From positions 1 through 45,641 of the forward strand of contig JACRLX010000028.1 in NCBI GenBank assembly GCA_016235165.1: a stretch of 45,641 nucleotides of DNA, in the 5' to 3' direction. The notes under the pieces were generated by a model that was not told where the DNA came from, searched no databases, and saw only the letters and a program-made list of their open reading frames with translations. Shown piece by piece: positions 24,115 through 43,672 of the stretch (the first letter of the stretch is position 1; each line of letters opens with the position of its first letter). Both the position numbers and the translations under genes were made by a program. This DNA is from Rhodocyclales bacterium. GTDB lineage: Bacteria; Pseudomonadota; Gammaproteobacteria; Burkholderiales; Rhodocyclaceae.

Positions 24115-26091
24115 TCACGCTCCAGTCGTAAAGCCGATCACAATCAGCGTCAGTAGTATCAAACCGAAAGCGATCAGCACCAGGCCGAGGATCTTGGACG
24201 CAAGCGTAAAGGGGCGCGACGGGGCATCGACCAGGTAATTTTCCAGTTGTCCGCTTTGGACCAGGCGGTCATATTGCGCCGCGTGCTCGTGGCGGAACTC
24301 GTCCAGCGACTGGGTGCCGGTGAACATCACCACGTCCGGCGGCGGCAGCTTGTCCGGGCGGAAGTGGTTGTTGAAGAAATGCACCGTGAACAGGAACACC
24401 GCGGCCAGGAAGGCTTCTTCGCCATGCACCACCATGGCGATGTTGAAGACCCAGCCCGGCAGATAGTTCGCCACCACATGCGGGAAGGCCAGGGCCATGC
24501 CGCTGCTGCCGATGATCGCCATGCCCCAGAACACCGCCCAGTAGTCGAACTTCTCCCAGTAGGACCAGCGCTCGATCGCCGGCCGTGGCCCCTTGCCGAG
24601 GAACCACTTGAACATGCCGATCATGTCGTGCATGTCCTTCCAGTTCGGCACGAAGGAGTCCGGACCGAAGAACGTGAAGGTCTTCCTGTTCCTCAGGATG
24701 TTGGTCGCGACGCCGATCAGGTGCAGGAAGAAGATGCCGAGCATGGTGAAGGCCGCGATCCGATGCACCAGGCCCGCGTTCTTCGGTCCGCCGAACGTGG
24801 CCATCACTGCCTTGGCCCAGCCGGTTTCGGCATAGAAGGCGGCCATGCCGGTCAGCACCAGGGTCATCACCGCCAGGGCGAAGCAAAGGTGCGCCAGGCG
24901 CCAGATCGGGCCGAAGCGCTTGACGTGCTTGCCCTTGAAGTCCTCGGGCAGGGCATCGGTGCGGATGTGGGGGGCGGTCTTGCCCTGCTTGCGGTCCTGG
25001 TACTCGCGGTACCACCAGAGGAGGGAGTGGGACCAGAAGAAGAGGAAGACGCCGACCAGGAGCGCCACCATGAACTTGGTGGTGAACCAGATCTGCGGGT
25101 ACTTGTCGAAGTTGTCGGCCGTGCCGTGCGGACTGAAGGTGAGGAAGCCGGCGGTGGCGAGCGGCAGATCCTTCTTGCCGCTGTGGCATTTCTGGCAGGT
25201 CTTGAGCCGGTTCTTCTCGTGCAGCTTGGACTTGGGATCCTTGGACGGCTCGATGCCGTGGCTGCCGTGGCAGTCGAAGCATTTGGCGGTGTAGGAGTAG
25301 CCCAGGGTATTGACCTGGCCGTGGTAGGAGGCCTTGTAGGACTTGTAGGCATCCTGGTGGCAATCGCCGCAGCTGGCGGTGATGGCGAGTTTGGCGGTAT
25401 GGGTCGAGCTGCCCACGATGTCATGGGTGGTGTGGCAGTCGGAGCAGACAGCGGTCTTCAGGTTTCGCTTGTCGGCTTCCTTGCCGTGGATGGAGCCGCC
25501 CCATTCTTCGCGATGATCCTCATGGCAGCGGCCGCAGATGTCGGCGACCGTGAGGTGCCATTCCTTGCGTTCCTGCGTTCCGCGCGGGGGGACGTCGAAG
25601 CTGTGCACGTTGTGGCAGTCGCTGCAGATGGCCATCTGCTTGGTCGGGTCGTCCTTGTCCGGCTTGGCGTGGAAGGATTTCTTGTAGGCGGCGACGTTGT
25701 CGGCGACGATGCCCAGGCGGGGTTTTTCCGCGGCCTTGCCCTGTTTCCGGGTCGCTTCCCAGAGGTCGAGGTGGCACTGGGCGCATTCGGCCTTGGCGAC
25801 TCCCGCAGCCTTCTTGTGAGGGCTGGCGGCGTCGGTGATTTCGGCGTGACAGGCGACGCAGTCCATCCTGGCGTGCACGCTGGCGGCGTATTTGCCGGGG
25901 TGGATGGTCTGCACGGGGCGCGTTTCGCCATTGCTGCCCGGCATCTCCAGCTTGCCCTTCTTGCCGTCGTGACAACTCTGGCAGCTGGCATTGTCGAGTT
26001 TCGGGGCGGCGGCGATGGCGGCGTGGCCGGCCGGCGCAAGGAGAATGGTCGCGGCGGCCAGGAGCCCTGCCGCAAGCGTGCTGCCCTTCAT
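24115..26091 (-). CDS. CbcL-like nine-haem cytochrome c fused to a membrane cytochrome b domain
   Basis: The 658-residue protein has a signal peptide (MKGSTLAAGLLAAATILLAP then AGHA), nine CXXCH haem sites within about residues 37-320 (CQSCH, CVACH, CAQCH, CSDCH, CGRCH, CSDCH, CGDCH, CFDCH, CQKCH), then about six membrane segments with histidines placed as in cytochrome b561-type diheme domains (RLAHLCF, VHRIAAF, FFLHLIG, VVHGEEAF, FTVHFFNNHF). This is the architecture of Geobacter CbcL, a menaquinol-linked cytochrome bc. As the last gene of the arr-like operon it probably exchanges electrons between the quinone pool and the periplasmic molybdoenzyme. The ATG at 26091 was chosen because the signal peptide begins there. 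Confidence 0.85.
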   Translation of the reverse strand: MKGSTLAAGLLAAATILLAPAGHAAIAAAPKLDNASCQSCHDGKKGKLEMPGSNGETRPVQTIHPGKYAASVHARMDCVACHAEITDAASPHKKAAGVAKAECAQCHLDLWEATRKQGKAAEKPRLGIVADNVAAYKKSFHAKPDKDDPTKQMAICSDCHNVHSFDVPPRGTQERKEWHLTVADICGRCHEDHREEWGGSIHGKEADKRNLKTAVCSDCHTTHDIVGSSTHTAKLAITASCGDCHQDAYKSYKASYHGQVNTLGYSYTAKCFDCHGSHGIEPSKDPKSKLHEKNRLKTCQKCHSGKKDLPLATAGFLTFSPHGTADNFDKYPQIWFTTKFMVALLVGVFLFFWSHSLLWWYREYQDRKQGKTAPHIRTDALPEDFKGKHVKRFGPIWRLAHLCFALAVMTLVLTGMAAFYAETGWAKAVMATFGGPKNAGLVHRIAAFTMLGIFFLHLIGVATNILRNRKTFTFFGPDSFVPNWKDMHDMIGMFKWFLGKGPRPAIERWSYWEKFDYWAVFWGMAIIGSSGMALAFPHVVANYLPGWVFNIAMVVHGEEAFLAAVFLFTVHFFNNHFRPDKLPPPDVVMFTGTQSLDEFRHEHAAQYDRLVQSGQLENYLVDAPSRPFTLASKILGLVLIAFGLILLTLIVIGFTTGA

Positions 26092-26174
26092 GTGCTCTTC
26101 CCTTTGTGGCGTGATGCCGCCCTTCGCCGGGCGCAAGTCAAGCGACCGGGGCCCGGCCCCGGTCGTTCAGTGCT

Positions 26175-26513
26175 TCAGCGCGAGAGTATCCATTGCGCGA
26201 GGTTGCTCAAGACCTTCGGATCCTTGTTCTCGATGATCTTGTGGTCTTCTTCGGTGCCATCTTCGAGCTTGACCTTGGGACCCGTGGTCATCTGCTTGAT
26301 GGCTTCCTTTTCGGTGAGCTTCTTTTCCTTGTACTTCGCCGCGATCTTCTTGTAAGACGGCCCCTTCTTGGTCTTGTCGATGGCGTGGCACTTGAAGCAG
26401 TCTTCCTTCTTCGCCAGCGCCTGGGCAGCGGCTTCGTCGACGGCGGCATGGGCAGGGCTTAGCGCGGCGAGGAACAGCATGCCGACGATGACGGGAATGG
26501 TCCTGGATTTCAT
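26175..26513 (-). CDS. monohaem class I cytochrome c, periplasmic
   Basis: The 112-residue precursor has a signal peptide (VGMLFLAALSPAHAA), one haem site CFKCH in AKKEDCFKCHAIDKTKKGPS and a lysine-rich middle, ending NLAQWILSR, the typical C-terminal helix of c551/c552-type carriers. A methionine in KQMTTGPK could be the sixth ligand. Its place between the chaperone and the CbcL-like gene suggests a mobile carrier between the molybdoenzyme and a membrane partner. The ATG at 26513 has AGGA upstream. Confidence 0.88.
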   Translation of the reverse strand: MKSRTIPVIVGMLFLAALSPAHAAVDEAAAQALAKKEDCFKCHAIDKTKKGPSYKKIAAKYKEKKLTEKEAIKQMTTGPKVKLEDGTEEDHKIIENKDPKVLSNLAQWILSR

Positions 26514-26559
26514 GTCTTGGTTTCCTGGGTAATGGTTAAACGGAGGCAACTCGGTCTGT

Positions 26560-27186
26560 TCAATTCATCAGCGTCATGGCACGGTTTTGCTCGGCCCTGA
26601 CGAAGCGTTCGGTAATCTCGCCCAGCGCTTTGTAGAACCCGGTTTCGGCCCCGGCATCGACAGCCTTGGCGAAGGCAGGAATCCACGCGCCGAGATGGGC
26701 GCTGACGAAGCGACTATACAGCGGCGCATCGTTCGCGGGATCGTCGAGTCCGGCATTGGCGGCATGGATCAGCCGATACAAAAACTCCAGCTCGACCGCC
26801 GCATGGTCGGGCAATTCAGGCAGGTCGTCGCCGACATCGAGCCCGCCCTGCTCATAGAAATCCAGCGCCACCTGGGTCGCCTCGTGGCGTTGCGAGGGGT
26901 CGTCGGTCAGCCAGAACGAGGCATAGGGCAGGGCACGCGGTTGCCCAGGGCCAATGAACAATCGGGTGTAGTCCACCAGCAACGTGCCTACATCCGTCGC
27001 CGCGAAGGCAGCGCCCAGGCGTTCGGCGACCTCGGCGAGATCCGGCTCGATGGCCGCCGCCGCCGCCCGGATGGAGTCGAAAAGGCGCTCTTCGGCAAAC
27101 GCGGCGCTCGGCTCGTAATAGCAGGCGGCAAGGTAGCGGCACAGATCTTCCCGTGCGCCGTCGATACCGGTTGGATAGGCAGTCAT
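26560..27186 (-). CDS. TorD/DmsD-family molybdoenzyme chaperone (ArrD/ArxD-like)
   Basis: The 208-residue cytoplasmic protein is helix-rich with the TorD-family pattern: LCRYLAACYYEPS near the N-terminus, DYTRLFIGPGQPRALPYASF (Y/F-x-x-L-F-x-G-P motif) and ELEFLYRLIHA. Such chaperones bind the Tat signal and guide cofactor insertion of the catalytic subunit. The start at 27186 (MTAYPTG) is likeliest; a GTG at 27267 overlapping the ferredoxin gene is possible. Position directly after the two enzyme subunits supports the role. Confidence 0.88.
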   Translation of the reverse strand: MTAYPTGIDGAREDLCRYLAACYYEPSAAFAEERLFDSIRAAAAAIEPDLAEVAERLGAAFAATDVGTLLVDYTRLFIGPGQPRALPYASFWLTDDPSQRHEATQVALDFYEQGGLDVGDDLPELPDHAAVELEFLYRLIHAANAGLDDPANDAPLYSRFVSAHLGAWIPAFAKAVDAGAETGFYKALGEITERFVRAEQNRAMTLMN

Positions 27187-27259
27187 GGCAAGTCCCGCGG
27201 CAGGATGCCCCGGAGCCCGCGCAGTCGCCCACGGGTCCGGGATGGCAAAGGATTGTAGT

Positions 27260-28069
27260 TCAGGCACGGGGACTGTACTTCCCGATGTAGTGCACGTTGG
27301 GCTTGGTGCCCTTGTCTTCCTGCAGGCGGAAGGATTTCTCCTTTTTCAGGATCTGCGAGATCCTGCTGTTGGGATCCTGCTGGTCGCCAAAGATCCGCGC
27401 CTGGGAGGGGCAGACCTCGACGCAGGCCGGTTGCAGGCCGTTGCTGACGCGGTGGTAGCAGAAGGTGCACTTCTCGATCACGTCATCCGAACGGATCGCC
27501 GTCAGCTCGCCGCCTTTCCAATCGTTCATCGCCGGCAACCGCGCGCCGGCCTTCGCCGCCACGTCGGCGCCGGACGAGGTGCCGCCCGGTATTGCCGCAG
27601 CCTTGTCGGCCCAGAAGGGTTGCGGCTCGTCTTCCGCCGGGTTGAGACTGATCACGCTGTAGGTCTCGCCGCTGAGGCTCCTGGCATCGAGCTTCTCGTG
27701 GCTGTAGGGGCAGCCATTCTTGGTCTGGCAATCGCCGCAGCCGACGCAGAGCTCGGGATTGTGCAGGGTGATGCCTTCCGGCGTCTTGAACAGCGCCTTG
27801 TAGGGCTTGCCCTTGCCGGCCTTTTCCGGATTTCCCGGGCAGATCTTGATGCAGGGCGGTTCGTCGCAGTGGTTGCACAGGACGGGGATGACGAAGTGTT
27901 TCGTATTGGGGAATGTCCCCTCGCTGTGCATCAGGAAGTCGGCCCAGTTGTGGCTCTGGCCCTTTTCGGTATTGCGGTTGCGCGTGTTGTTTTCGGTCTT
28001 GCAGGCAAAGGCGCAGGCGCCACAACCAACACAGCGCGACAGATCGATAAGCATTCCGAGTTTCATCAT
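27260..28069 (-). CDS. arrB: four-cluster ferredoxin subunit (ArrB/ArxB-like)
   Basis: The electron-transfer subunit of the molybdoenzyme has 269 residues and sixteen cysteines in four groups: CVGCGACAFAC, CNHCDEPPCIKICP, CVGCGDCQTKNGCP and CTFCYHR with PACVEVCP, giving four [4Fe-4S] clusters as in the DmsB/PsrB/ArrB family. There is no signal peptide, so it would travel folded with the Tat-exported catalytic subunit. It starts 20 nt after that subunit's stop with AAGGAG upstream. An inserted stretch at about residues 140-190 is longer than I expect for ArrB. Confidence 0.88.
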   Translation of the reverse strand: MMKLGMLIDLSRCVGCGACAFACKTENNTRNRNTEKGQSHNWADFLMHSEGTFPNTKHFVIPVLCNHCDEPPCIKICPGNPEKAGKGKPYKALFKTPEGITLHNPELCVGCGDCQTKNGCPYSHEKLDARSLSGETYSVISLNPAEDEPQPFWADKAAAIPGGTSSGADVAAKAGARLPAMNDWKGGELTAIRSDDVIEKCTFCYHRVSNGLQPACVEVCPSQARIFGDQQDPNSRISQILKKEKSFRLQEDKGTKPNVHYIGKYSPRA

Positions 28070-28089
28070 AGTCTCCTTGTCGAGGGCGC

Positions 28090-30642
28090 TCAGGCCTTGG
28101 TGATGCGCACGCCGGTGAAGCCACCGTTGCGCGCCGTGGCGCCGCTCAAGCGGTCGTAGTCATCGACCAGGATTTCGTTGTTGTTGCCGCCCAGGGGGAC
28201 TGACTTGGCATAGTCCTTCGCGGCGACGCGGCCGTAGGCCCAGTGGCCCTGGCCGTAACACTTGGCCACGGTGCCGGGACGCACGCCCTCCCACAGCTTG
28301 AGGTCGACGGTGATGGAACCCGCCGGCGAGGTGATGGTGACCTTGTCGCCGGTCTTCAGGCCCAGTTTGGCGCCGTCGGCCGGATTCATCTTGACCACGT
28401 CGCCCCAGGACACATCGCCCGGATCGACCTTCTTGAACTCCTGGTACCAGGGCAGGTTCTGCGAACGACCTTCACGGTTGAGCCGCGACTTGTAGTCGAT
28501 GAAGGTGAAGGGGTAGTCCTCGAAACTGCCATGGCGCTTGGGCGGCTCGTAGTGCGGCACGAAGGCCACCTCGCCCTTGGCGGTATAGCCGCTGACGGCG
28601 AGGATGTCGTCGACCGAGGTCTCGTGCTTCTTGGCATGGGCGTCCAGCAGCTTCTTCAGGGTCGCGCTGTAGAACTCGAACTTCTTCGTTTCGCTCTTGA
28701 ACTTGCCGCCCCAGCCCTTCTTGAGCGTGTAGCGCGGGCCGCTGAACATGCCCCTGGCCTTGAACGCGGCCCAGCCCTTGATCGGCGCATCGCCCTTCTG
28801 CTCTTCCTTGCCATCCCAGATCGGCGCGCTGATGAACTTGGTGACCAGTTCGGCGAATTCCAGCTCGCTGGTCGCCGACTTGCCGGTCTCAGGATCCTTG
28901 ATCGTGTCGAAGTAGTCGGCCAGGTTGGGGAAGCCCTTGGCCTTCAGCTTCTGCCCCAGCAGCCACTGCACTTCGGTTTCTTCCTGCTTGACATCGAAGA
29001 CGCGCTTGATCGGGCTCTGCTGGATCGAGGCGTAGGTGTAGCCGTTGCTGCCGTTGGTGACGATGTTCCAGCCCTCGGACGAGTTGAAGGTGGAGGGCAG
29101 CACGATGTCGGCGAACTGGGTCATTTCCGACGGGTTGGTGACCATGTGCACGAAGAAGGGCAGCTTGGCCATTACCTGGTTCCAGCGGTCGGCGCCGGTG
29201 CAGGAGTGGTTGAAGTTGTTCCACGAGGCCAGCAGCACCTTGACCGCACCGGGATTCTTCAGCAACACATTGGGAATGTCGTTGACCGCCGCCGTCTGGA
29301 AGGCTGGCAACTCCTTGCTGCCCCGGCGATTGGTATCGTGATTCTTGGAGCCCTTCTTGGCCACTTCGTCGATGAAGGCATCCTTGCTGGGGAACTTGTT
29401 CAGCTTGGGACCGCTGCCGCCTTCCTGCACCACGATGTCGATCGAGCCAAGCAGGCCGTTCAGGGCATATACGGCCATGGCAGCGTAGGTGCCGCGCGGC
29501 CACATTGCCACACCGGGGCCCATCCAGACGGCGGTATTGGGGCCTGATTTCGCCATGGCGCGGGCGACGCGAATGATCTGCTCGGCGGGGATGCCGCATT
29601 CCTTTGCAGCGAAGGCCGGCGTGCGGTCCTTCAGCTCCAGGTTCCACCACTTGACCAGGCCGGAGGTTTCCTTCTCGACGAAGGCATCTTCGGCCACCGT
29701 GGCACCGGCGACGAAGAGGTTCTTGCCGTCCTTGAAGTCGCCGACGAAGTCGCGGCTCCAGCTACCGTCGGTGAGGATCACGTGGGCGATGGCGCCGGCC
29801 AGCGCGCCGTCGGTGCCGGGCAGTACCGGCAGCCACTCGTGCGACTTGGCGCCGGCATTGGAAAGGCGCGGATCGACCGTGATCACGGTGCCGCGGGCGA
29901 CGATTTCATGGAAGCGATGGATGGTATTCGGCACCTGCCGATTCGAGGCCAGCGGATCGCAGCCCCAGACCACCAGGCAGTTGGTCTTTTCCAGGTCGTA
30001 GTCGCGGTAACCGGCGAAGCCCTGGGTCAGGCGCGGACCCATCTTCTCGGCTTCGGCGCAGATCGCGCTGTGCGAGAAGTAGTTGCCGGTGCCGAAGATC
30101 TTCGGCAGGGTGCCGTAGAGCAGTTCCTGCGAGATCGGTCCGTAGCGGCCACGCAGGTACATCAGCTTTTCCGGCTCGCCGGCCTTGCGCAGTTCGAGCA
30201 TCTTGTCGGCGACGATGTTCATCGCCTCGTCCCAGGAGATCGGCACGAACTTCGGATCGATGCCGCGCCCCTTCATCGGATTGGTGCGTTTCAGCGGCTG
30301 CTTGATGCGATCCGGGTCGTAGGTCTGCTGCGTGATCAGATGGCCACGCGGGCAGACATAGCCGTGGTTGCTCTTGGAAAACTCGTTGCCGCGCACGCGT
30401 GTGACACGCCCGCCACTGACGAACAGCTGGATGGCGCACCACTGGGTGCAGCCCTGGCAGGTGCTGGCGATCCATTCGCCCTTGGCCGGTGTGCTGGCCC
30501 TGGCCTTGCGTGGTATCAGCGCGGCCTTGAAGGGCATGGGCTTGGGCTTGGCCGCATCGGCCGCCCAGGCAAGGCCACCACAGGCCCAGCAAGCCGCAGA
30601 TGCCGCGGATGCCTTGATGAATTCACGTCGGGTCAGCCTCAT
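28090..30642 (-). CDS. arrA: ArrA/ArxA-family molybdopterin arsenate reductase or arsenite oxidase, catalytic subunit
   Basis: The 850-residue protein has a twin-arginine signal (TRREFIKASAA), the [4Fe-4S] motif CX2CX3CX27C (Cys62, 65, 69, 97) and the Mo-bis-MGD core. RGRY at 164-167, HSAIC at 191-195 (Cys195 the probable Mo ligand), Lys200 and Tyr212 match arsenate-contacting residues I recall from ArrA structures. As I recall, RGRY marks ArrA while ArxA carries GRGWG, favouring arsenate reduction; the adjacent ArxX/AioX-type sensor could equally suit arsenite oxidation. The ATG at 30642 has AAGGAGG 8 nt upstream and replaces a longer open frame to 30810. Neighbours are arrB, torD and two cytochromes; ArrC is absent. 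Polysulfide/thiosulfate reductase is the main alternative. Confidence 0.78.
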   Translation of the reverse strand: MRLTRREFIKASAASAACWACGGLAWAADAAKPKPMPFKAALIPRKARASTPAKGEWIASTCQGCTQWCAIQLFVSGGRVTRVRGNEFSKSNHGYVCPRGHLITQQTYDPDRIKQPLKRTNPMKGRGIDPKFVPISWDEAMNIVADKMLELRKAGEPEKLMYLRGRYGPISQELLYGTLPKIFGTGNYFSHSAICAEAEKMGPRLTQGFAGYRDYDLEKTNCLVVWGCDPLASNRQVPNTIHRFHEIVARGTVITVDPRLSNAGAKSHEWLPVLPGTDGALAGAIAHVILTDGSWSRDFVGDFKDGKNLFVAGATVAEDAFVEKETSGLVKWWNLELKDRTPAFAAKECGIPAEQIIRVARAMAKSGPNTAVWMGPGVAMWPRGTYAAMAVYALNGLLGSIDIVVQEGGSGPKLNKFPSKDAFIDEVAKKGSKNHDTNRRGSKELPAFQTAAVNDIPNVLLKNPGAVKVLLASWNNFNHSCTGADRWNQVMAKLPFFVHMVTNPSEMTQFADIVLPSTFNSSEGWNIVTNGSNGYTYASIQQSPIKRVFDVKQEETEVQWLLGQKLKAKGFPNLADYFDTIKDPETGKSATSELEFAELVTKFISAPIWDGKEEQKGDAPIKGWAAFKARGMFSGPRYTLKKGWGGKFKSETKKFEFYSATLKKLLDAHAKKHETSVDDILAVSGYTAKGEVAFVPHYEPPKRHGSFEDYPFTFIDYKSRLNREGRSQNLPWYQEFKKVDPGDVSWGDVVKMNPADGAKLGLKTGDKVTITSPAGSITVDLKLWEGVRPGTVAKCYGQGHWAYGRVAAKDYAKSVPLGGNNNEILVDDYDRLSGATARNGGFTGVRITKA

Positions 30643-30741: not shown

Positions 30742-30757
30742 GTTACTGTTCGGTAAC
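30742..30757. promoter_or_regulatory. palindrome GTTAC-N6-GTAAC, site A
   Basis: GTTACTGTTCGGTAAC, perfect 5-bp arms with a 6-nt spacer, about 100 nt upstream of arrA in its leader region. It is identical in arms and spacing to sites B and C, and probably binds the response regulator encoded at 33444. Confidence 0.65.
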
Positions 30758-30841: not shown

Positions 30842-30948
30842 CCGCGCAGCGCAAGCCATGGCAGACCATTGCTTGAGAGCTGAAGCGATTTGGCAGGGGG
30901 CAGGCGGGTTTCACGGGAAAACAGGGATCAATGTCGTACCCGTAATCC

Positions 30949-30964
30949 TGCGAAAACCATGCCC
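30949..30964 (-). promoter_or_regulatory. candidate sigma-54 promoter of the arr-like operon
   Basis: The minus strand reads GGGCATG-GTTT-TCGCA against the consensus TGGCACG-N4-TTGCA, with the essential GG and GC at correct spacing. Sites B and C lie about 86 and 139 bp upstream, the usual place for enhancer-bound activators. It would give a leader of about 300 nt before arrA. Confidence 0.45.
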
Positions 30965-31049: not shown

Positions 31050-31065
31050 GTTACCATTCCGTAAC
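31050..31065. promoter_or_regulatory. palindrome GTTAC-N6-GTAAC, site B
   Basis: GTTACCATTCCGTAAC, 15 nt before the binding-protein gene. With site C it shares GTTACC and CCGTAAC; the two are 53 bp apart, about five helical turns, so they lie on the same face of DNA. Confidence 0.7.
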
Positions 31066-31079: not shown

Positions 31080-31973
31080 ATGAACTCAATCACGCCGTTG
31101 GTGTTACCAAACCGTAACCGCCGCCAGTGGCTATTCCAGGCCGGCTGTCTCACCGCCGCCGGCCTGGTCGGCCTCGCGCGCGAGCCCGGCGCGACGGAAA
31201 AAAAGATCCGCGTCGGCATGACGCCCGCTTTCCTCCACGACCAACACGGCCTGCTCGGCGAATGGCGCGACTTCATGGCCGATTCGCTGCGGCGCCCGGT
31301 CGAATTCGTGCAGCGCGACAGCTACCGCGAAACCATGGATCTGCTGCGCCTCGACAAGCTCGAATTCGCCTGGGTCTGCGACTACCCCTATCTGCACCTC
31401 AAGGACACCGTGCGCCTGATGGCCGTGCCGCTCTACCAGGGCAAGCCGCATTACCGCTCCTACCTGATAGTGCACAAGGACACCGCCAATGTCCGTTCCA
31501 TGGCCGACCTGCAGGACAGCGTGTTCGCCTATGCCGATCCGTACTCGAATACCGGCTACCTGGCGCCGCGCTACGAGATCCGCCAGTTGGGTCGCGACCC
31601 GGCGGGCTTCTTCCGCAAGACCTTCTTCACCTGGTCGCACCGCAAGGTGGTCGAAGCCGTGGCCAGCGGCCTGGCACGCGGCGGCGCGGTGGACAGCTAC
31701 ATCTGGGAAACCCTGGCCCATGTCGAGCCGGCCCTGGTAAAGCGCACGCGCCTGGTGTCGCGCTCGCCCGAATACGGCTTTCCGCCCTTCGTCGCCCACC
31801 GTTCGGTGGCACAGGCGGAATTCCGCCAGATGCAGGAGCATCTGCTCGGCACCGGCAACAGCGAAGCCGGCCGGCGCCTGCTGGCCCGCCTGTACCTCGA
31901 CGGCTTCACCGCCGGCAGCCCCGCGCTCTACGACGGCGTGGCGCAGATGATGCGCGCCTTCGGCGAAAGTTGA
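31080..31973 (+). CDS. periplasmic PhnD-like arsenite-sensing binding protein (ArxX/AioX-like)
   Basis: The 297-residue protein has an RR-containing signal (NRRQWLFQAGCLTAAGLVGLA) and a PhnD-type fold: KIRVGMTPAFLHDQHGLLGEW, FAWVCDYPYLHL, SYLIVHKDT, FAYADPYSNTGYLAPRY. The mature protein has a single cysteine, Cys100 in WVCDYPYL; AioX proteins use a conserved cysteine to bind arsenite, so this residue is the likely sensor. It is followed by a kinase and regulator, the X-S-R order of arx and aio loci. Site C lies within its first 13 codons. The ATG at 31080 lacks a strong ribosome binding site. Confidence 0.85.
   Translation: MNSITPLVLPNRNRRQWLFQAGCLTAAGLVGLAREPGATEKKIRVGMTPAFLHDQHGLLGEWRDFMADSLRRPVEFVQRDSYRETMDLLRLDKLEFAWVCDYPYLHLKDTVRLMAVPLYQGKPHYRSYLIVHKDTANVRSMADLQDSVFAYADPYSNTGYLAPRYEIRQLGRDPAGFFRKTFFTWSHRKVVEAVASGLARGGAVDSYIWETLAHVEPALVKRTRLVSRSPEYGFPPFVAHRSVAQAEFRQMQEHLLGTGNSEAGRRLLARLYLDGFTAGSPALYDGVAQMMRAFGES
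31103..31118. promoter_or_regulatory. palindrome GTTAC-N6-GTAAC, site C
   Basis: GTTACCAAACCGTAAC lies inside codons 8-13 of the binding-protein gene. It is a third copy with the same arms and spacing, unlikely to be dictated by coding. Confidence 0.65.
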
Positions 31974-31983
31974 GTGCGGCATC

Positions 31984-33465
31984 GTGCGCTGGCTGTTCAA
32001 TCTTTCCTTCCGCCACAAGATTCCCTTGTGGACCTCCTTCCTGATCGGCTTGTCGATCTTCGTGGTCGGCGCCGCCTTGATGACGCGCGCCTACCGGGAC
32101 ATGAAGGCCGCGGTGGTGATCAGCGCCGACAACCTCGGCCACACGCTGGCCAATACCGTGGCGCCGATGCTGCTGCACGACGACGTCTGGCGCGCCTTCG
32201 AGATCGTGCGTTCGCCGATCCGCGCCGAATCGGCGCGCAGCCCGGTGCAGGTGGATGCGGTGGTGGTGTTCGGCCGCGACCGCCGCATTTTCGTTTCCAG
32301 CCACCCGGAAAGCCTGCCCATGCTGAGCGAGCCGGCGGCGCTCGGCGCCGACTGGCTGGCGCTGGCGGCAGGGCTCGACGCTCCGACGCCCGTCGCCTGG
32401 CCGCTGGTGATCGAACCGGAGGGCTCCAGCTACCTTTACCTCGCGCTGCCGATCACCGACAAGGATGCCCAGTTGGGCCACCTGGTCCTGCGCTATGCCA
32501 AATCGGTGTTCCATCCCTGGTTCGTCGCCACCACCTGGCAGGGCCTCGGCCTTGGCCTGCTGGTGCTGGCGGTGCTGATTCCGATCAACTGGTACTGGGG
32601 CAGTCGCATGGCCTCGCCGCTGGTCGACCTGGCGCAGCGCATGGGCATGATGATGGAAAGGCCGCCCGAGCCGCTGCCGCCGGACCTCTATCCCTACCAT
32701 GACGAGCTCGGCCAGTTGTTCCAGGCCTATGACCGCATGGTGCTGGCGCTGCGCGAAAAGGCGGCGCTGGAAAGCGAGGTCGTGCGCAGCGAACGCCTGG
32801 CCGCGATCGGCCAGCTCACCGCCGGCATCGCCCATGAAATCAACAACCCGCTGGCCGGACTGATCACCGCCGTCGATACCCTCAAGCTGCGCCAGGACCT
32901 CGATCCGAGGGCCCTGCGCCACCTCGATCTGATCGATCGCGGACTGATGCAGATCCGCGATACCGTCGCCGCCCTGCTGGTGCAGACCCGGGTGCAGGCC
33001 AGGCCCCTGAACCAGCACGACCTCGACGATGTGCATACGCTGATCCAGCCCCAGGTCGCCAAGCGCCGCATCACGCTCGACTGGTCCGCCACCATGCCGC
33101 CCGAGTTGCCCGCGCCCGCCAGCCTGGTCCGCCAGATCCTGATCAACCTGTTGCTGAATGCCGTGCAGGCGGCGGCAGAAGGCGGCCACGTGAGCCTGCG
33201 GCTGGGCCAGAAAGCGGATTCCGGGTCCTGTCTCGCCATCGTCGTGCGCAATGACGGCACGCTGCTGAGTGACGAACAACTCGCCCACCTGTTCGAGCCC
33301 TTCGCCTCCACCCGCGCCGGCGGCCACGGCCTCGGACTCTGGGTCACCTACCAGATCGTCACCCAGCTCGACGGCCGCATCAGCGCCCGCAACGTCGACG
33401 ATCAGGTCGAGTTCGTGGTCAACCTGCCACTTGGAGATGCTCCATGCAACACCGCATCGGCCTGA
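31984..33465 (+). CDS. membrane sensor histidine kinase (ArxS/AioS-like)
   Basis: The 493-residue kinase starts at GTG 31984. It has two membrane segments (about residues 15-35 and 182-203) flanking a periplasmic domain of about 145 residues, a HAMP-like linker, the H box GIAHEINNPLAGL with the phosphoacceptor near His284, the N box ILINLLLNAVQAAA and the G box GGHGLGLWVT. It probably reads the arsenite-loaded binding protein encoded upstream and phosphorylates the regulator whose gene overlaps its end by 22 nt. Confidence 0.9.
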   Translation: MRWLFNLSFRHKIPLWTSFLIGLSIFVVGAALMTRAYRDMKAAVVISADNLGHTLANTVAPMLLHDDVWRAFEIVRSPIRAESARSPVQVDAVVVFGRDRRIFVSSHPESLPMLSEPAALGADWLALAAGLDAPTPVAWPLVIEPEGSSYLYLALPITDKDAQLGHLVLRYAKSVFHPWFVATTWQGLGLGLLVLAVLIPINWYWGSRMASPLVDLAQRMGMMMERPPEPLPPDLYPYHDELGQLFQAYDRMVLALREKAALESEVVRSERLAAIGQLTAGIAHEINNPLAGLITAVDTLKLRQDLDPRALRHLDLIDRGLMQIRDTVAALLVQTRVQARPLNQHDLDDVHTLIQPQVAKRRITLDWSATMPPELPAPASLVRQILINLLLNAVQAAAEGGHVSLRLGQKADSGSCLAIVVRNDGTLLSDEQLAHLFEPFASTRAGGHGLGLWVTYQIVTQLDGRISARNVDDQVEFVVNLPLGDAPCNTASA

Positions 33466-34766
33466 TCGAGGACGATCCCATCATCGGCGAGGCGCTCTCC
33501 GAACGTCTCGAATTCGAAGGCTTCGCCTGCGACTGGTACCGCGACGGCCGCACCGCCCGACGCGGACTCGGCCAACGGCGTTACAGCGTGGTGGTGAGCG
33601 ACATCAACCTTCCCGAAATCAGCGGCGAATCGTTGTTCAGCGATCTGCTCGCCGGCGGCCAGCCCATGCCGCCCTTCATTTTCATCACCGGCTACGGCGC
33701 CATCGACCAGGCCGTGCGCCTGCTCAAGCTGGGAGCCCATGACTATGTCACCAAACCGTTCAATGTCGGCGAACTGATCACCAAGATTCGCGGCCTGTGC
33801 GAACGCATGCCGACACTGAATGAATCCGAGGCGACGCTGGGGATCTCCGCCGGCATGCGCCAGATCGAGGCGCTGCTGCCGCGCCTGGCGGCGAGCCGCA
33901 GCGCCGTGCTGATTTCCGGCGAATCCGGCGCCGGCAAGGAGGAAGTGGCGCGCGCCCTGCACCGCGCCGGCGACCCCGATGGCAAGGCGCCCTTCATCGC
34001 CGTGAATTGCGGCGCGATTCCGGAGAACCTGATCGAGTCCGAGCTCTTCGGCCACGACAAGGGCGCCTTCACCGGCGCGGATCGCGAGCGGCGCGGCGTC
34101 TTCGAACAGGCCGACGGCGGCACCCTGTTCCTAGACGAAATCGGCGAAATGCCGCCGACCATGCAGGTCAAGCTGCTGCGCGCGATCCAGGACCGCGCCA
34201 TCGTCCATGTCGGCGGCGCCACCCGGCGACAGGTCGACATCCGCCTGGTCTGCGCCACCCACCACGACTTGAAGGCCATGGTCGAACAAGGGCGCTTCCG
34301 TGAAGACCTCTATTACCGCATCCACGTCGTGCATCTGCATGTGCCACCCCTGCGCGAACGCCAGGAAGACATCCTCTGGCTGGCCGCACGACTGCTCGAC
34401 GCCCACGCCGCGCGCGGCGAAGCAAGACGAAGCCTGAGCCCGGAAGCGGAGCGTGCGATGGTGCGCTACCCGTGGCCCGGCAACGTGCGCGAGCTCGCAC
34501 ACTGCCTGGAGCGCGCCTGCGTGCTGTCGCTCACGCCGCAACTGCGGGCCGAAGACCTGTTTGGCGCCGCCACCAGTGCCAACCCGTCGTCCGAATCGCT
34601 GCGCCAGAACCTCAGCGAGCACCTGCAGGACTGCGAGCGGGCCTACATCCGCGGCGCGCTGGCCGAGTGCGACGGCCGCATCACCGACACCGCCGCCCTG
34701 CTCGGCATCAGCCGCAAGAATCTGTGGGAAAAGATGCGCAAGCTGGGAATCGCCGAGACCGCCTGA
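33444..34766 (+). CDS. sigma-54-dependent response regulator (ArxR/AioR-like)
   Basis: The 440-residue NtrC-type activator has a receiver domain (Asp53 in VVVSDINLP, Lys in YVTKPFN), an AAA+ domain with Walker A GESGAGKE, the sigma-54 contact loop GAFTGA at about 207-212 and DEIGEMP, and a Fis-type helix-turn-helix (ITDTAALLGISRKNLWEKM). Its presence explains the candidate -24/-12 promoters and the repeated palindromes at 30742, 31050 and 31103. It probably turns on the arr-like operon when arsenite is present. Confidence 0.93.
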   Translation: MQHRIGLIEDDPIIGEALSERLEFEGFACDWYRDGRTARRGLGQRRYSVVVSDINLPEISGESLFSDLLAGGQPMPPFIFITGYGAIDQAVRLLKLGAHDYVTKPFNVGELITKIRGLCERMPTLNESEATLGISAGMRQIEALLPRLAASRSAVLISGESGAGKEEVARALHRAGDPDGKAPFIAVNCGAIPENLIESELFGHDKGAFTGADRERRGVFEQADGGTLFLDEIGEMPPTMQVKLLRAIQDRAIVHVGGATRRQVDIRLVCATHHDLKAMVEQGRFREDLYYRIHVVHLHVPPLRERQEDILWLAARLLDAHAARGEARRSLSPEAERAMVRYPWPGNVRELAHCLERACVLSLTPQLRAEDLFGAATSANPSSESLRQNLSEHLQDCERAYIRGALAECDGRITDTAALLGISRKNLWEKMRKLGIAETA

Positions 34767-34792
34767 CACCACCCATCCGCCAGCCACGGGCG

Positions 34793-34798
34793 TAGAAT
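34793..34798 (+). promoter_or_regulatory. -10 box of the ars operon
   Basis: TAGAAT lies 34 nt upstream of arsR, with no good -35 element. The ArsR operator candidate immediately follows. Confidence 0.4.
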
Positions 34799-34807
34799 GC
34801 GCATGAC

Positions 34808-34823
34808 TTCCATATCCGTGGAA
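34808..34823. promoter_or_regulatory. candidate ArsR operator
   Basis: TTCCATATCCGTGGAA has 5-bp perfect inverted arms (TTCCA/TGGAA) around 6 nt and sits between the -10 box and the arsR start, where a repressor would block transcription. Confidence 0.5.
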
Positions 34824-34831
34824 ATGTAGAA

Positions 34832-35179
34832 ATGAAAACCGCACACGCCGTTGCCAAGCTGGCCGCCCTGGCGCAGGAAAGCCGCCTGCGCATTTTCCGC
34901 CTGCTGGTGCAGGCCGGGCCGGAGGGCATGAACGCCGGCGCCATCGCCGAGGCGGTCGGCATTCCCGCCAACACGCTTTCCTTCCACATCGCCCACCTGG
35001 CCCGCGCCGGGCTGGTCGCGGCGCGCCAGGAAAGCCGCTTCATCTACTACTCGGCCAGCTACCCGGCGATGGATGAACTGCTCGCCTTCCTTACCGACAA
35101 CTGCTGCCAGGGTGAGGGGCAATGCCTGCCCAGGACCGTGGCGGCATCCACCAGCAAGCGCCGCCCTCGGGCGGCTTGA
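34832..35179 (+). CDS. arsR: ArsR-family arsenite-responsive repressor
   Basis: The 115-residue winged-helix repressor controls the ars operon. The helix-turn-helix is at about 36-60 (AIAEAVGIPANTLSFHIAHLARAGL) and the wing follows (ARQESRFIYYSA). The arsenite site is at the C-terminus: Cys91-Cys92-x5-Cys98 in TDNCCQGEGQC. This matches the Cys95/96/102 arrangement I recall from Acidithiobacillus ArsR and not the helix-3 pair of the E. coli plasmid type. It is first in arsR-arsC-acr3-arsD-arsA. Confidence 0.94.
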   Translation: MKTAHAVAKLAALAQESRLRIFRLLVQAGPEGMNAGAIAEAVGIPANTLSFHIAHLARAGLVAARQESRFIYYSASYPAMDELLAFLTDNCCQGEGQCLPRTVAASTSKRRPRAA

Positions 35180-35191
35180 GGAGATAGCATC

Positions 35192-35677
35192 ATGTCTTTC
35201 CAGATTCTCGTTTTGTGCACGGGCAATTCGGCGCGCTCCATCCTCGGCGAAATGCTGTTCAACCATCTTGGGCAGGGTCGCATCACGGCGTACTCGGCCG
35301 GCAGCAGGCCGGGCGGCACGGTCAATCCGGTCGCCATCGAAACCCTGCACAGGCACGGCATTCCCTGCGAGGGAGCGCGCAGCAAGAGCTGGAATGAATT
35401 CGCGGCGCCCGGCGCGCCCGAATTCGATTTCATCTTCACCGTTTGCGCCAACGCCGCCAACGAGACCTGCCCGATCTGGCCCGGCCATCCGACCACGGCG
35501 CACTGGACCTTGCCCGATCCCGCCCATGTCGAGCCGATGGAAGCGCGCCGCGCCGCCTTCGAGCAAGCCTATCAATCGCTGAGGAAGCGCATCGCAGCCT
35601 TCCTCGCCCTGCCGCTGGAAAGCATGACGCCGCAAGAGTCGGCGCTGGCGGCACGGCGCATCCACGAGGAATCCTGA
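35192..35677 (+). CDS. arsC: arsenate reductase, low-molecular-weight phosphatase type
   Basis: This cytoplasmic enzyme reduces arsenate to arsenite for export. The 161-residue protein has the phosphatase-like P loop CTGNSAR (Cys9 to Arg15) near the N-terminus, additional cysteines at 59, 85 and 93 (FTVCANAANETCPIWPG) and the DPA motif of the family (LPDPAHVEP). The cysteine pair at 85/93 suggests a thioredoxin-type redox relay, though the exact spacing differs from what I recall for S. aureus ArsC. It lies 1 nt before acr3. Confidence 0.9.
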   Translation: MSFQILVLCTGNSARSILGEMLFNHLGQGRITAYSAGSRPGGTVNPVAIETLHRHGIPCEGARSKSWNEFAAPGAPEFDFIFTVCANAANETCPIWPGHPTTAHWTLPDPAHVEPMEARRAAFEQAYQSLRKRIAAFLALPLESMTPQESALAARRIHEES

Positions 35678-35678
35678 C

Positions 35679-36755
35679 ATGTCCGCGCAATGTGAAACCA
35701 CCGCCAAGCTCGCCGCCAAGGCACCCATGAGCCTGTTCGAGCGCTGGCTGACACTCTGGGTCTTCCTCTGCATCGTCGCCGGCATCGCCCTTGGGCAATT
35801 CGTGCCGGCGCCCTTCCAGGCCCTCGGACGCATGGAAGTCGCCCGCGTCAACATCCCGGTCGGCCTGCTGATCTGGGTGATGATCATCCCGATGCTGGTC
35901 AAGGTCGATTTCGGCGCCCTGCACGAAGTCAGGAGCCATGTCAAAGGCATCGGCGTGACGCTGTTCGTGAACTGGCTGGTGAAGCCCTTCTCGATGGCGC
36001 TGCTGGGCTGGATCTTCATCCGCCACCTGTTCGCGCCCTACCTGCCGGCCGACCAGCTCGACAGCTACATCGCCGGCCTGATCCTGCTCGCCGCCGCGCC
36101 CTGCACGGCGATGGTCTTCGTCTGGAGCCGGCTGACCAATGGCGACCCGCTGTTCACGCTGTCGCAGGTGGCGGTCAACGACACCATCATGATCTTCGCC
36201 TTTGCGCCGCTGGTCGGCCTGCTGCTCGGCATCTCGGCGATCACCGTGCCCTGGGACACGCTGGTGACCTCGGTCGTGCTCTACATCCTGATTCCGCTGG
36301 CGCTGGCGCAACTGTGGCGCAAGGCGCTGCTGAACAAAGGCCAGGCGCATTTCGATGCCACCATGGAAAGGATCGGCCCCTGGTCAATCAGCGCACTGCT
36401 GGCGACGCTGGTGCTGCTGTTCGCCTTCCAGGGCAAGGCCATCGTGGACAAGCCGCTGATCATCGCGCTACTCGCGGTGCCGATCCTGATCCAGGTCTTC
36501 TTCAACGCCGGCCTCGCCTACTGGCTCAACCGCGTGGTCGGCGAGAAGCACAACGTCGCCTGCCCCTCGGCCCTGATCGGCGCCAGCAACTTTTTCGAAC
36601 TCGCCGTCGCCGCCGCCATCAGCCTGTTCGGCTTCGAGTCCGGCGCGGCGCTGGCCACCGTGGTCGGCGTGCTGATCGAGGTACCGGTGATGCTGCTGGT
36701 GGTCAAGGTGGTGAACGCCAGCAAACCCTGGTATGAACAAGGAGTGAAGTCATGA
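35679..36755 (+). CDS. acr3: Acr3-type arsenite efflux permease
   Basis: Acr3 exports arsenite across the inner membrane. The 358-residue protein has about ten membrane helices and the family hallmarks APCTAMVFVWS (catalytic Cys in helix 4) and the GEKHNVACPSALIGASNFFELAVA region (read in pieces) with the conserved Glu. With ArsA encoded three genes later, an ATP-driven Acr3-ArsA pump is possible. The stop overlaps arsD (4 nt). Confidence 0.95.
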   Translation: MSAQCETTAKLAAKAPMSLFERWLTLWVFLCIVAGIALGQFVPAPFQALGRMEVARVNIPVGLLIWVMIIPMLVKVDFGALHEVRSHVKGIGVTLFVNWLVKPFSMALLGWIFIRHLFAPYLPADQLDSYIAGLILLAAAPCTAMVFVWSRLTNGDPLFTLSQVAVNDTIMIFAFAPLVGLLLGISAITVPWDTLVTSVVLYILIPLALAQLWRKALLNKGQAHFDATMERIGPWSISALLATLVLLFAFQGKAIVDKPLIIALLAVPILIQVFFNAGLAYWLNRVVGEKHNVACPSALIGASNFFELAVAAAISLFGFESGAALATVVGVLIEVPVMLLVVKVVNASKPWYEQGVKS

Positions 36756-37120
36756 AAACGCTTGAAGTCTTCGATCCCGCGATGTGCTGTTCCACCGGCG
36801 TCTGCGGCGTCGATGTCGATCCCGTGCTGGCGCTGTTCGCCGCCGACCTGAAATGGGCGGGCGAGCAGGGCGTGACGGTGAACCGCCACAACCTCGGCCA
36901 GGAGCCGGCCGCCTTCGCCGCCAATCCGGCGGTGTTGAAGGAAATGGAAGCCGGCATGGAACGCCTGCCGATCCTGGTGATCGACGGCCAGATCGCCTCG
37001 ACCGGCCTCTACCCTTCGCGCGCGCAACTGGCGCAGAAGCTCGGCCTGAAAGTCGGCGCTGGCGACACGGCGGCCAGCCCGGCCAAATCCTGCTGCGCGC
37101 CCAAATCCGGCTGTTGCTGA
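36752..37120 (+). CDS. arsD: ArsD arsenic metallochaperone
   Basis: ArsD takes arsenite from thiols and hands it to ArsA. The 122-residue protein has the essential Cys12-Cys13-Cys18 (MCCSTGVC) and two C-terminal vicinal pairs, Cys114-115 and Cys121-122. Residues 100-107 (KVGAGDTA) are encoded by a copy of the dispersed repeat, lying just before the vicinal pairs, so the linker seems to have absorbed the repeat in frame. Confidence 0.95.
   Translation: MKTLEVFDPAMCCSTGVCGVDVDPVLALFAADLKWAGEQGVTVNRHNLGQEPAAFAANPAVLKEMEAGMERLPILVIDGQIASTGLYPSRAQLAQKLGLKVGAGDTAASPAKSCCAPKSGCC
37049..37072 (+). repeat. dispersed repeat, copy 4 (inside arsD)
   Basis: AAAGTCGGCGCTGGCGAC followed by ACGGCG, identical to copy 2 over 24 nt. 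It is read in frame within arsD. Confidence 0.75.
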
Positions 37121-37121
37121 C

Positions 37122-38870
37122 GTGGTGTTGCCGGCAATCCGCACCCGCCACGCCTTCTTCACCGGCAAGGGCGGGGTGGGCAAGACCTCGCTGTCCTGTG
37201 CCACGGGCCTGGCACTGGCCGAAGCCGGCCGGCGCGTGCTGATCGTCAGCACCGATCCGGCCTCCAACCTCGACGAAGTGCTGGGCACGCCGCTCGGACA
37301 AACACCCACCGCGATTGCCGGCGCCGATCGGCTCTTCGCCCTCAACATCGACCCCGAGGCGGCGGCGCAGGCCTACCGCGAGCGCATGGTGGCGCCCTAT
37401 CGCGGCGTCCTGCCGCCGGCGGCGATCCAGAGCATGGAGGAGCAGTTCTCCGGCGCCTGCACCGTCGAGATCGCCGCCTTCGACGAATTCTCCAAACTGC
37501 TCGGCGACCCGGCAGCCACGCGGGATTTCGATCATGTGATCTTCGACACCGCGCCCACCGGCCACACGCTGCGGCTGTTGACGCTGCCCTCGGCCTGGGA
37601 CGAATTCATCGCCTCCTCGACCGGCGGCGCCTCCTGCCTCGGGCCGCTGGCCGGACTGGAAAAACAGAAAGCCCTGTATGCCGCCACGGTCCGCCAGCTC
37701 GCCGATGCCGCCATGACCACGGTGGTGCTGGTGAGCCGGGCCGAGACTTCCGCCCTGCGCGAGGCGGAACGCACCCGCGCGGAACTCGCCGCGCTTGGCG
37801 TGACAAACCAGCAACTCGCCATCAACGGCTTTTTCGCGGCGGCCACGCCGGGCGACGCGATTGCCGACGCCATGACGCGACGCATGGCCGCCGCGCTGGC
37901 CGCCATGCCACCGGGCTTGGCCGCACTGCCCGCCACGACCACCGCCTTCGTGCCGCGCGGCACCGTCGGGCTGGCTGCGCTGCGCAGCCTCGAGCAGCCA
38001 CCGGACCAGTCCGCCGCCACCGAAACAGTCAGCACCGGCGACACCCCGCTGCCGCCCGGACTCTGCGGCCTGGTCGACGACCTCGCCTCAAAAGGCCGCG
38101 GCGTCATCATGACCATGGGCAAGGGCGGCGTCGGCAAGACCAGCCTCGCCGCCGCGCTGGCCCTGGCGCTGGCCGGCCGCGGCCATGCCGTGCATCTGTC
38201 CACCACCGATCCCGCCGCGCACCTGACGCAGGCGCTGGGCGACGCCGCCGGCCCGCTGACCGTCGGCCGCATCGATCCCGCCGCCGAGGTGGCACGCTAC
38301 ACGCAGGAGGTGCTGGCGAAGGCCGCCGACCGGCTCGACGCCGCCGGCCGCGCCCTGCTCGAAGAAGACCTGCGCTCGCCCTGCACCGAGGAGATCGCCG
38401 TCTTCCGCGCCTTCGCCCAGGCCGTGCATGCGGGGCGCAAGGGCTTTGTCGTGCTCGACACCGCGCCCACCGGCCACACGCTCCTTCTGCTCGATGCCGC
38501 CGAGGCCTACCACCGCGAAGTCCAACGGACCCGGGGCGAGATGCCCGAAAGCGTTACCGCACTGCTGCCGCGCCTGCGTGACCCGGACTACACGCGCATC
38601 CTCATCGTCACCCTGCCCGAGGCCACGCCGGTGCACGAAGCCGAGCGCCTGCAAGGCGACCTGAAGCGCGCCGGCATTGCGCCCTATGCCTGGGTCATCA
38701 ACCAGAGCCTGTTTGCCAGCGGCACGCAGGATGCGCTGCTGCGCCAGCGCGGGCAGTACGAGATACCCTTCATCCGCCGCGTCGCCGACCAACTGGCGCC
38801 GCGCGCCTGCCTCGCCCCCTGGCTGGCCGAGGCGCCGGAAGGCGAGGGGTTGCGCCGGCTGGTCGCGTAA
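37122..38870 (+). CDS. arsA: arsenite-stimulated pump ATPase ArsA
   Basis: ArsA is the cytoplasmic ATPase that energises arsenite export. The 582-residue protein is a tandem duplication: P loops GKGGVGKTS near residue 13 and again near 332, each with a DTAPTGHTL signature. The metalloid-site cysteines are present in GACTVEIAAF, ASCLGPLAG and SPCTEEIAVF. It starts at GTG 37122, 1 nt after arsD. Confidence 0.95.
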   Translation: MVLPAIRTRHAFFTGKGGVGKTSLSCATGLALAEAGRRVLIVSTDPASNLDEVLGTPLGQTPTAIAGADRLFALNIDPEAAAQAYRERMVAPYRGVLPPAAIQSMEEQFSGACTVEIAAFDEFSKLLGDPAATRDFDHVIFDTAPTGHTLRLLTLPSAWDEFIASSTGGASCLGPLAGLEKQKALYAATVRQLADAAMTTVVLVSRAETSALREAERTRAELAALGVTNQQLAINGFFAAATPGDAIADAMTRRMAAALAAMPPGLAALPATTTAFVPRGTVGLAALRSLEQPPDQSAATETVSTGDTPLPPGLCGLVDDLASKGRGVIMTMGKGGVGKTSLAAALALALAGRGHAVHLSTTDPAAHLTQALGDAAGPLTVGRIDPAAEVARYTQEVLAKAADRLDAAGRALLEEDLRSPCTEEIAVFRAFAQAVHAGRKGFVVLDTAPTGHTLLLLDAAEAYHREVQRTRGEMPESVTALLPRLRDPDYTRILIVTLPEATPVHEAERLQGDLKRAGIAPYAWVINQSLFASGTQDALLRQRGQYEIPFIRRVADQLAPRACLAPWLAEAPEGEGLRRLVA

Positions 38871-40720: not shown

Positions 40721-40724
40721 GCCC

Positions 40725-42123: not shown

Positions 42124-42140
42124 ACCGCCCGGATTGCTGC

Positions 42141-42170
42141 GGCGCACACTGATTGCAATCATGGTGCGCC
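42141..42170. promoter_or_regulatory. FNR/DNR-type box in a 30-bp palindrome
   Basis: TGATTGCAATCA (42150-42161) is a perfect 12-bp palindrome of the TGAT-N4-ATCA class, framed by GGCGCAC (42141-42147) and GTGCGCC (42164-42170). Its centre is 41.5 bp before a start expected from the -10-like TAAGGT at 42185-42190, the class II activator position. Confidence 0.6.
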
Positions 42171-42220
42171 TCGGCGGGCTTCGCTAAGGTCGCGACTCCA
42201 GGAACATCGAGGAGTCCCCC

Positions 42221-43594: not shown

Positions 43595-43672
43595 GCGCTG
43601 TACGGCAAGCGCAAGTACTACCTGCAATTCGCAAGTTGCATTTCCATCCATGAAAATCCAAGGAGATACCGT

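Follow-up and report, generated by a model that had tools for sequence, protein, structure and literature searches.

An arr operon followed by a CbcL/MtoC/MtrH-type cytochrome bc in a Rhodocyclales bacterium

Arsenate reduction mobilises arsenic into water, and in arsenate respirers with neither ArrC nor CymA, the electron source of the arsenate reductase ArrAB is, to our knowledge, an open question. The stretch analysed here (the window; 45,641 nucleotides, contig JACRLX010000028.1 of the Rhodocyclales bacterium assembly GCA_016235165.1) is a whole contig, C14, of a 4.47 Mb genome (G000). On its minus strand, from 30642 to 24115, it carries an arrA-type, an arrB-like and a torD-like gene followed by cytC1, which encodes a monohaem cytochrome c, and by the gene for CBC, in which a cytochrome c with nine haems is joined to a cytochrome b of six predicted helices. 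The two cytochromes are a concrete candidate for the electron supply of ArrAB, with a regulatory link: the operon is probably connected to the quinone pool by the monohaem cytochrome c and a cytochrome bc of the CbcL/MtoC/MtrH type instead of an NrfD-type ArrC, the module being shared rather than arr-specific. If this is true, arsenate respiration and extracellular electron transfer would be joined to one exchangeable quinone module.

The window operon shares with ArrAB of Shewanella (PDB 6cz7) and with the arr genes of Sulfuritalea and other Betaproteobacteria the catalytic and iron-sulfur subunits, a TorD-like chaperone, the RGRY motif and nearby ars genes, but it differs from the known ArrAB systems in that it has no NrfD-type ArrC and a cytochrome bc lies behind arr. 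NrfD is absent from the families listed for the five operon proteins; a genome-wide scan of G000 for NrfD or NapC/CymA was not made. The Arx cluster (arxB2ABCD with arxXSR), in which arxC encodes an NrfD-type anchor, has in common with the window a related catalytic subunit and a divergent PhnD-like sensor, kinase and sigma-54 regulator, whereas the window has RGRY rather than XGRGWG, no arxC and no arxB2 that could be seen. CymA is the partner of ArrAB in two Shewanella strains (PMC6295460), and arrDE, encoding a TorD protein and a 4Fe-4S protein, lies beside arrAB (PMC11283718); an arrD-like gene is present in the window operon, whereas no arrE was seen there, no search aimed at arrE having been made.

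The best NCBIfam model for the arrA-type protein is ArrA (NF041714, 942 bits), and the best PDB match is Shewanella ArrA 6cz7 at 837 bits, with the next at 148 bits. The protein is 46% identical to an ArrA (L087) that passes the NCBI cut-off. The NCBI equivalog cut-offs, which are naming thresholds, are 1600 bits for ArrA and 450 bits for ArrB, and both are missed (942 and 219 bits); the wording "ArrA-type" is therefore used, and the function rests on the literature on the genus. ArrA is marked by (R/K)GRY and ArxA by XGRGWG (PMC6549141). RGRY is present in all 83 proteins tested (that of the window, those of 80 named loci and two from further genomes) and is followed by SHSxxCAEA in 82, while GRGWG is found in none of the 83, window included. 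Because RGRY is present, the enzyme is placed by its sequence with ArrA, and an ArxA identity is rejected on the motif. The original prediction of an operon for an arsenic-type molybdoenzyme holds as far as the arsenic enzyme is concerned, whereas its leaving the choice between ArrA and ArxA undecided does not, as RGRY points to ArrA.

The named loci are the best 80 among 478 relatives obtained in a scan with an alignment of nine ArrA-type proteins, and some of them are the same records as genomes in a 61-genome set. The nearest among these best 80 are from Sulfuritalea and Rhodocyclales metagenome-assembled genomes (MAGs), from which the genus of the window is putatively called Sulfuritalea. 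An ArrA-type match (E 1e-100 or better) occurs in 12 of the 61 genomes, its own included, all of them in this genus. S. hydrogenivorans sk43H has arrAB and respires arsenate (PMC6397845), and an arr cluster is reported in 9 of 30 Sulfuritalea genomes (PMC11283718). Arsenate reduction, published for sk43H, is predicted by analogy for the present genome. In two of the named loci (L138 and L161), the MAG titles (Selenomonadales and Chitinophaga pinensis) do not match the betaproteobacteria-like arr genes, and the labels may be wrong.

An Arx-like arsenite oxidase working in the reverse direction, with electrons entering the quinone pool through CBC, is a highly improbable account of the operon. 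In their order and divergent placement the regulator genes are similar to arxXSR, and CbcL/MtoC/MtrH cytochromes are thought to run both ways (PMC6295460), but the motif is that of ArrA, the arxABC order kept in all 46 arx genomes of one survey is not found here, arxC and any listed NrfD family being absent from the operon, and the congener sk43H respires arsenate (PMC6397845).

The cytochrome bc and its position behind arr

CbcL combines nine c-haems with a six-helix, di-haem b domain (PMC9129911), and its identity to MtoC/MtrH is printed as 35.4-35.7% (PMC6295460). In CBC, CXXCH motifs are located at residues 37, 78, 103, 156, 186, 216, 241, 271 and 299, and six hydrophobic segments (Kyte-Doolittle) give six predicted helices. 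In an alignment of 22 homologues, which includes the window and three rows from Desulfuromonadales/Geobacteraceae MAGs, every row keeps the Cys and His of all nine motifs, with one motif spaced CX3CH in some of the rows. Equally invariant are eight more His on the periplasmic side and the membrane-domain His 355, 401, 443, 556, 571 and 576; H457 is kept in 21 of the 22. CBC has the motifs and predicted helices of CbcL/MtoC/MtrH, namely nine CX2CH in the N-terminal half and six predicted helices with conserved His, and by sequence it belongs to this known family. The fusion of a nine-haem cytochrome c to a membrane domain of the cytochrome b type, the b-type histidines and the five genes with their place and order had all been read correctly in the original prediction.

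Four Desulfuromonadales/Geobacteraceae MAGs, reached via arr loci, contain one CBC match each, and the three complete proteins have nine CXXCH and are 34-35% identical to the window CBC by tblastn and 36-39% in the alignment. Because of the nine-haem make-up and an identity near the published values for CbcL and MtoC/MtrH, the MAG proteins are taken to be CbcL. The CbcL/MtoC/MtrH family has been read as both quinol-oxidising and quinone-reducing because its members are present in both Fe(III) reducers and Fe(II) oxidisers (PMC6295460), and quinol oxidation or quinone reduction by CBC is predicted from this family. The AlphaFold model of CBC (mean predicted local distance difference test score, pLDDT, 44) was too poor and was not used; it has long helices in the membrane region at low confidence.

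Known members of the family are tied to extracellular electron transfer, whereas the window CBC is encoded together with a monohaem partner in an arr operon. In the portion of the survey drawn on, arsenate is mentioned for CymA alone (PMC6295460), and no description of a CbcL-family gene in an arr operon was met in the literature searched, a coverage that excludes most subscription papers. What is new is an arr operon that would use a CbcL-family quinol dehydrogenase common to the genus; the cytochrome family itself is already known.

Gaps of 20 to 83 bases separate the five genes. The sole terminator-like site on the minus strand is within the CBC gene, and there is none from one gene to the next. 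The five genes are predicted to be co-transcribed. The two b-haems in the membrane domain of CBC, with its six predicted helices, would be the site of quinol oxidation, and the electrons would then pass along the nine periplasmic c-haems of CBC to the monohaem cytochrome c and from there to ArrB and its four [4Fe-4S] clusters, for which four 4Fe-4S cysteine groups are read directly in the arrB-like ferredoxin. From ArrB they would reach the Mo centre of ArrA, where arsenate would be reduced to arsenite in the periplasm, and Acr3 with ArsDA would export cytoplasmic arsenite.

The same gene order recurs in the genus. The 12 Sulfuritalea genomes contain 13 ArrA-type operons, and in nine of these (the window, G002, G004, G005, G012, G018, G023, G025:C106 and G026) cytC1-CBC lies behind arr in the same orientation; in G026 arrA itself is at the end of another contig, and in G002 torD and cytC1 are separated by a single gene, for a UbiE-like methyltransferase. 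Outside the genus, the order arr, monohaem cytochrome c, CBC is complete in a Burkholderiales MAG (L130), runs into CBC at the contig end in a Rhodoferax MAG (L128), and does so with one extra gene in an uncultured proteobacterium (L107). The search for other genomes in which an ArrA homologue is followed by a CbcL-like gene, proposed in the original prediction, was thus successful within and beyond Sulfuritalea. In two further Rhodoferax loci (L133 and L140), the genes behind arr encode a nine-haem protein that is not fused, a cytochrome b of about 210 residues on its own and a monohaem cytochrome c, a set that resembles a CbcL-type module in pieces; the cytochrome b of L140 is of the thiosulfate-reductase type, below cut-off.

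Promoter layout and regulation

The palindrome GTTAC-N6-GTAAC (arr box) occurs three times in the window, in the stretch from arrA to the beginning of the sensor gene, and not once in 100 shuffles. The whole genome contains four such sites, against two for the reversed control pattern. Over 750,682 bases of loci (overlapping loci counted twice, window included), 62 box sites are found, and all but one adjoin a PhnD-like sensor gene or an arrA-type gene. A sigma-54 (-24/-12) like element is present in 10 of 11 Sulfuritalea arr upstream regions, at 100-103 bp from a box in the eight regions where both fell in the cut-out stretch. When the plain sigma-54 consensus was scanned for, 71 matches were obtained where 64 were expected; the assignment of the element rests on its conservation because the plain matches are near expectation. 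No sigma-70 promoters were found in the scan. The NtrC-type sigma-54 regulator is the likely binder of the boxes, at which it would, with the PhnD-like sensor and the histidine kinase, switch arr on.

In G003, cytC1-CBC is located behind the regulators, about 5 kb from arrA, and is preceded by a pair of boxes at a distance of 53 bp, one of which has a mismatch, followed 104 bp on by a -24/-12 element, TGGCATGGTTTCTGCA. The exact box of this pair is the single exception among the 62 sites. Boxes and element occur together in this one of the 30 CBC upstream regions scanned, seven of which are inside arr operons and one of which (L082) had 1 bp upstream; lone boxes with two mismatches are present in four and lone sigma-54-like matches in three. 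The scan was measured from called gene starts, and the boxes of another genome discussed below (G050) were missed because they lie further upstream of these. The membership of CBC in the arr regulon is supported most strongly by this copied promoter layout, found in one genome, G003. As had been predicted, a CbcL-family cytochrome stands where ArrC or ArxC would be expected, and it is linked to the arsenic enzyme by the conserved order and, in G003, by the promoter layout.

CBC as a probable shared module and its possible electron donor

Several findings weigh against the assignment of CBC to ArrAB. The promoter link rests on one genome, the CBC of which is still about 5 kb from arrA. Of the 13 Sulfuritalea operons, two have no cytC1-CBC behind arr (G003 and G025:C45, locus L091, a complete arr operon without CBC), and in two more (G019 and G030) the contig ends too early to tell. 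A Rhodocyclaceae MAG (L108), with an ArrA 83-84% identical to that of the window, has a monohaem cytochrome c and no CBC, with only an unfused pair on the other strand. Among 45 loci that extend 4.5 kb or further beyond arrA, four have CBC, three an unfused pair and one the NrfD of another operon, and in the remaining 37 there is no CBC, unfused pair, monohaem cytochrome c or NrfD match downstream; six of these 37 have a monohaem cytochrome c or a cytochrome b/multihaem match upstream. Arr therefore does not need CBC in cis. When 20 arr-bearing genomes were searched for CBC anywhere, 11 had a match to the membrane part, four to the haem part only, and five had none. Additionally, CBC is matched in 30 of the 61 relatives (one weakly), against 12 with arr, and most genomes of the genus have it, whether or not they carry arr; the co-occurrence of arr and CBC therefore proves nothing. 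The NrfD near arr in L132, considered as a candidate partner, was rejected as it is part of another molybdoenzyme operon on the opposite strand.

Such a distribution would also be expected if an arr operon had landed by chance beside a resident CBC locus, with electrons supplied by another quinol dehydrogenase (of the NapC/CymA type, or a soluble cytochrome). In addition to the 37 long loci without the module, the arr without CBC in L091 and L108 and the many genomes with CBC and no arr, the arr operon of G005 is located at the gmk-rpoZ-spoT locus, where other genomes keep CBC. However, nine operons share the order with no minus-strand terminator-like site between the genes, the arr promoter is copied before CBC in G003, and the order is kept in L130 outside the genus, so that a chance neighbourhood appears unlikely.

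The original prediction had also brought in menaquinol, which CbcL links to low-potential acceptors in Geobacter. A menA is present in the genome of the window (171.8 bits, cut-off 102) with an adjacent MenG/UbiE-family gene, but no menD, menB or mqnA was recognised there: all matches to the MenD and MenB models fall below cut-off and there is none to MqnA, whereas control genomes exceed the cut-offs. This also weighs against a route from menaquinol, which is therefore not to be assumed as the donor. The menA and menG/ubiE-family pair (G000:C38, L223:1459-3140) without recognised menD, menB and mqnA occurs in a genome that is 99.99% complete. An NrfD/ArrC gene elsewhere that is co-expressed with the operon had been named in advance as evidence against the route. 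The nearest to this case is an NrfD/TtrC-like gene (below both cut-offs) on G000:C48 (L235), in its own molybdoenzyme operon with iron-sulfur, MopB and TorD-like genes; that operon, which is conserved in relatives, is accompanied by a separate set of PhnD-like sensor, kinase and regulator genes and by a single box-like site, GTTACGCCGGCGTAAC. Nothing seen ties this gene to arr or excludes it.

The idea that the electron route was made for the arsenic enzyme is not borne out by the relationships of the CBC copies. Outside arr operons, CBC copies adjoin decahaem DmsE-family and MtrB/PioB proteins or the gmk-rpoZ-spoT locus (gene names checked on L058), and CBC is also found beside other molybdoenzymes (L056, L057 and L065). 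Trees were calculated for the N-terminal haem part and for the membrane part with seven of the nine arr-linked copies, the partial copies of G023 and G025 being left out. In both, the seven arr-linked rows need seven label changes, of which well-supported branches force at least three in the N-terminal part and at least four in the membrane part. A single clade of arr-linked CBC is rejected, and the copies interleave with those beside MtrAB conduits or gmk-rpoZ-spoT. In G002, a genome in a single contig, the arr CBC and the gmk-locus CBC are 8 kb apart and 100% identical over about 1.5 kb, which covers the last three haems, the membrane domain and some 3' flank, whereas most of the N-terminal part is 75-86% identical; recent gene conversion would give such a pair. 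The CBC pair of G012 has no identical stretch of this type. CBC is single-copy in the genome of the window, and the gmk-spoT stretch examined there has none. The best reading of these sequences is that CBC is a shared, interchangeable quinol dehydrogenase of the genus, not specific to arr, and that the module appears to have been repeatedly placed, or homogenised, next to arr.

Two genomes combine the regulatory system with CBC and other oxidoreductases. In G027 (L065, C4), regulators 81-84% identical to those of the window and three boxes accompany cytC1-CBC, and the unclassified molybdoenzyme that precedes it is 25% identical to ArrA and below every NCBIfam cut-off listed; a two-haem protein likewise precedes cytC1-CBC. 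In G050 (L076), which is from another family of the order and has no ArrA-type match, a sensor, kinase and regulator set 45-61% identical and two boxes are found, and the genes for CBC, cytC1, a decahaem protein of the DmsE family and an MtrB/PioB protein, the last two above cut-off, are divergent to them. A modular cassette can tentatively be proposed from these loci, in which the sensor system with its boxes and the CbcL/MtoC-type quinol dehydrogenase would be constant and the terminal oxidoreductase would be exchanged (ArrAB, the molybdoenzyme of G027, or the decahaem/MtrB-type conduit of G050). Gene conversion, as in G002, would keep the membrane half identical while the haem-rich N-terminal part diverges, as if choosing the partner.

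The same arrangements may be read differently, with the CBC module of the arr operon serving an outer-membrane conduit and being co-induced for the additional use of mineral-bound Fe(III)/As(V), and ArrAB being fed elsewhere. Close copies of CBC do adjoin decahaem DmsE-family and MtrB/PioB proteins (both above the NCBIfam cut-off in L056), and in G050 the conduit genes, with CBC and cytC1, face the arr-type sensor system. However, the window operon has no conduit genes, and CBC with the monohaem cytochrome c is the sole candidate for electron input within it, which makes this explanation quite improbable beside the supply of ArrAB through a shared CBC.

Two other proteins recur beside these genes. 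A UbiE-like methyltransferase of about 253 aa (L090:8118-8900, L064:4160-4957 and similar) is recognised from its N-terminus in many Sulfuritalea loci, where it adjoins arr regulators or CBC; two copies scanned were below every UbiE/MenG cut-off, and two copies in the genome of the window (L220 and L221), 79-81% identical, are located outside the window. Likewise, a protein of about 400-424 residues with one CXXCH (L067:8999-10273, L071, L107 and L205) recurs by its N-terminus beside cytC1-CBC, and the L067 copy weakly matches the haem-b subunit of DMSO reductase type II enzymes.

Features of the window

The divergent sensor and regulator genes and the ars genes (31080-38870) fall outside the span that the original prediction covered. 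The products of the ars genes exceed their NCBIfam cut-offs for Acr3 (394 bits), ArsD (114), ArsA (770) and ArsR/SmtB (67), and the gene at 35252, which has no NCBIfam match at 1e-10, is called arsC-like by inspection.

Table 1. Positions of the operon, its putative control elements and the adjoining genes in the window
Feature	Position	Strand	Properties
ArrA-type molybdoenzyme catalytic subunit, 850 aa	28090..30642	-	twin-arginine signal MRLTRREFIKASAA; [4Fe-4S] motif; RGRY
ArrB-like ferredoxin subunit	27260..28069	-	NF041715 ArrB 219 bits (cut-off 450); Fer4 families
TorD-like maturation chaperone (arrD)	26560..27186	-	PF02613 92 bits; TorD and DMSO-type chaperone models below cut-off
Monohaem cytochrome c (cytC1)	26175..26513	-	one CXXCH; PF00034 30.3 bits; N-terminus signal-peptide-like
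CBC, CbcL/MtoC/MtrH family	24115..26091	-	nine CXXCH; six hydrophobic segments; Cytochrome_C7 and Ni_hydr_CYTB
Sigma-54 (-24/-12) like element, upstream of arrA	30948..30964	-	GGGCATGGTTTTCGCAG; consensus match, candidate promoter
arr box 1, GTTAC-N6-GTAAC	31103..31118		within the called 5' end of the PhnD-like gene, which may in fact start further in
arr box 2	31050..31065		53 bp from box 1, 102 bp upstream of the -24 element
arr box 3	30742..30757		between the -24/-12 element and arrA
PhnD-like periplasmic binding protein (arxX-like position), divergent from arrA	31080..31973	+	PF12974 180 bits
Sensor histidine kinase	31984..33465	+	HisKA, HATPase_c
NtrC-type sigma-54 response regulator	33444..34766	+	Response_reg, Sigma54_activat, HTH_8
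Arsenic resistance genes arsR (34832), arsC-like (35252), acr3 (35679), arsD (36752), arsA (37122)	34832..38870	+	

No match to the window at 1e-100 was found in a plasmid collection. Beyond the ars genes, at 39776-45502, the window encodes a rhodanese-like protein, an ExtKL-like cytochrome, a TsoB-like rhodanese and a SaoE-like permease, all below cut-off, which possibly form a second metalloid or sulfur cluster.

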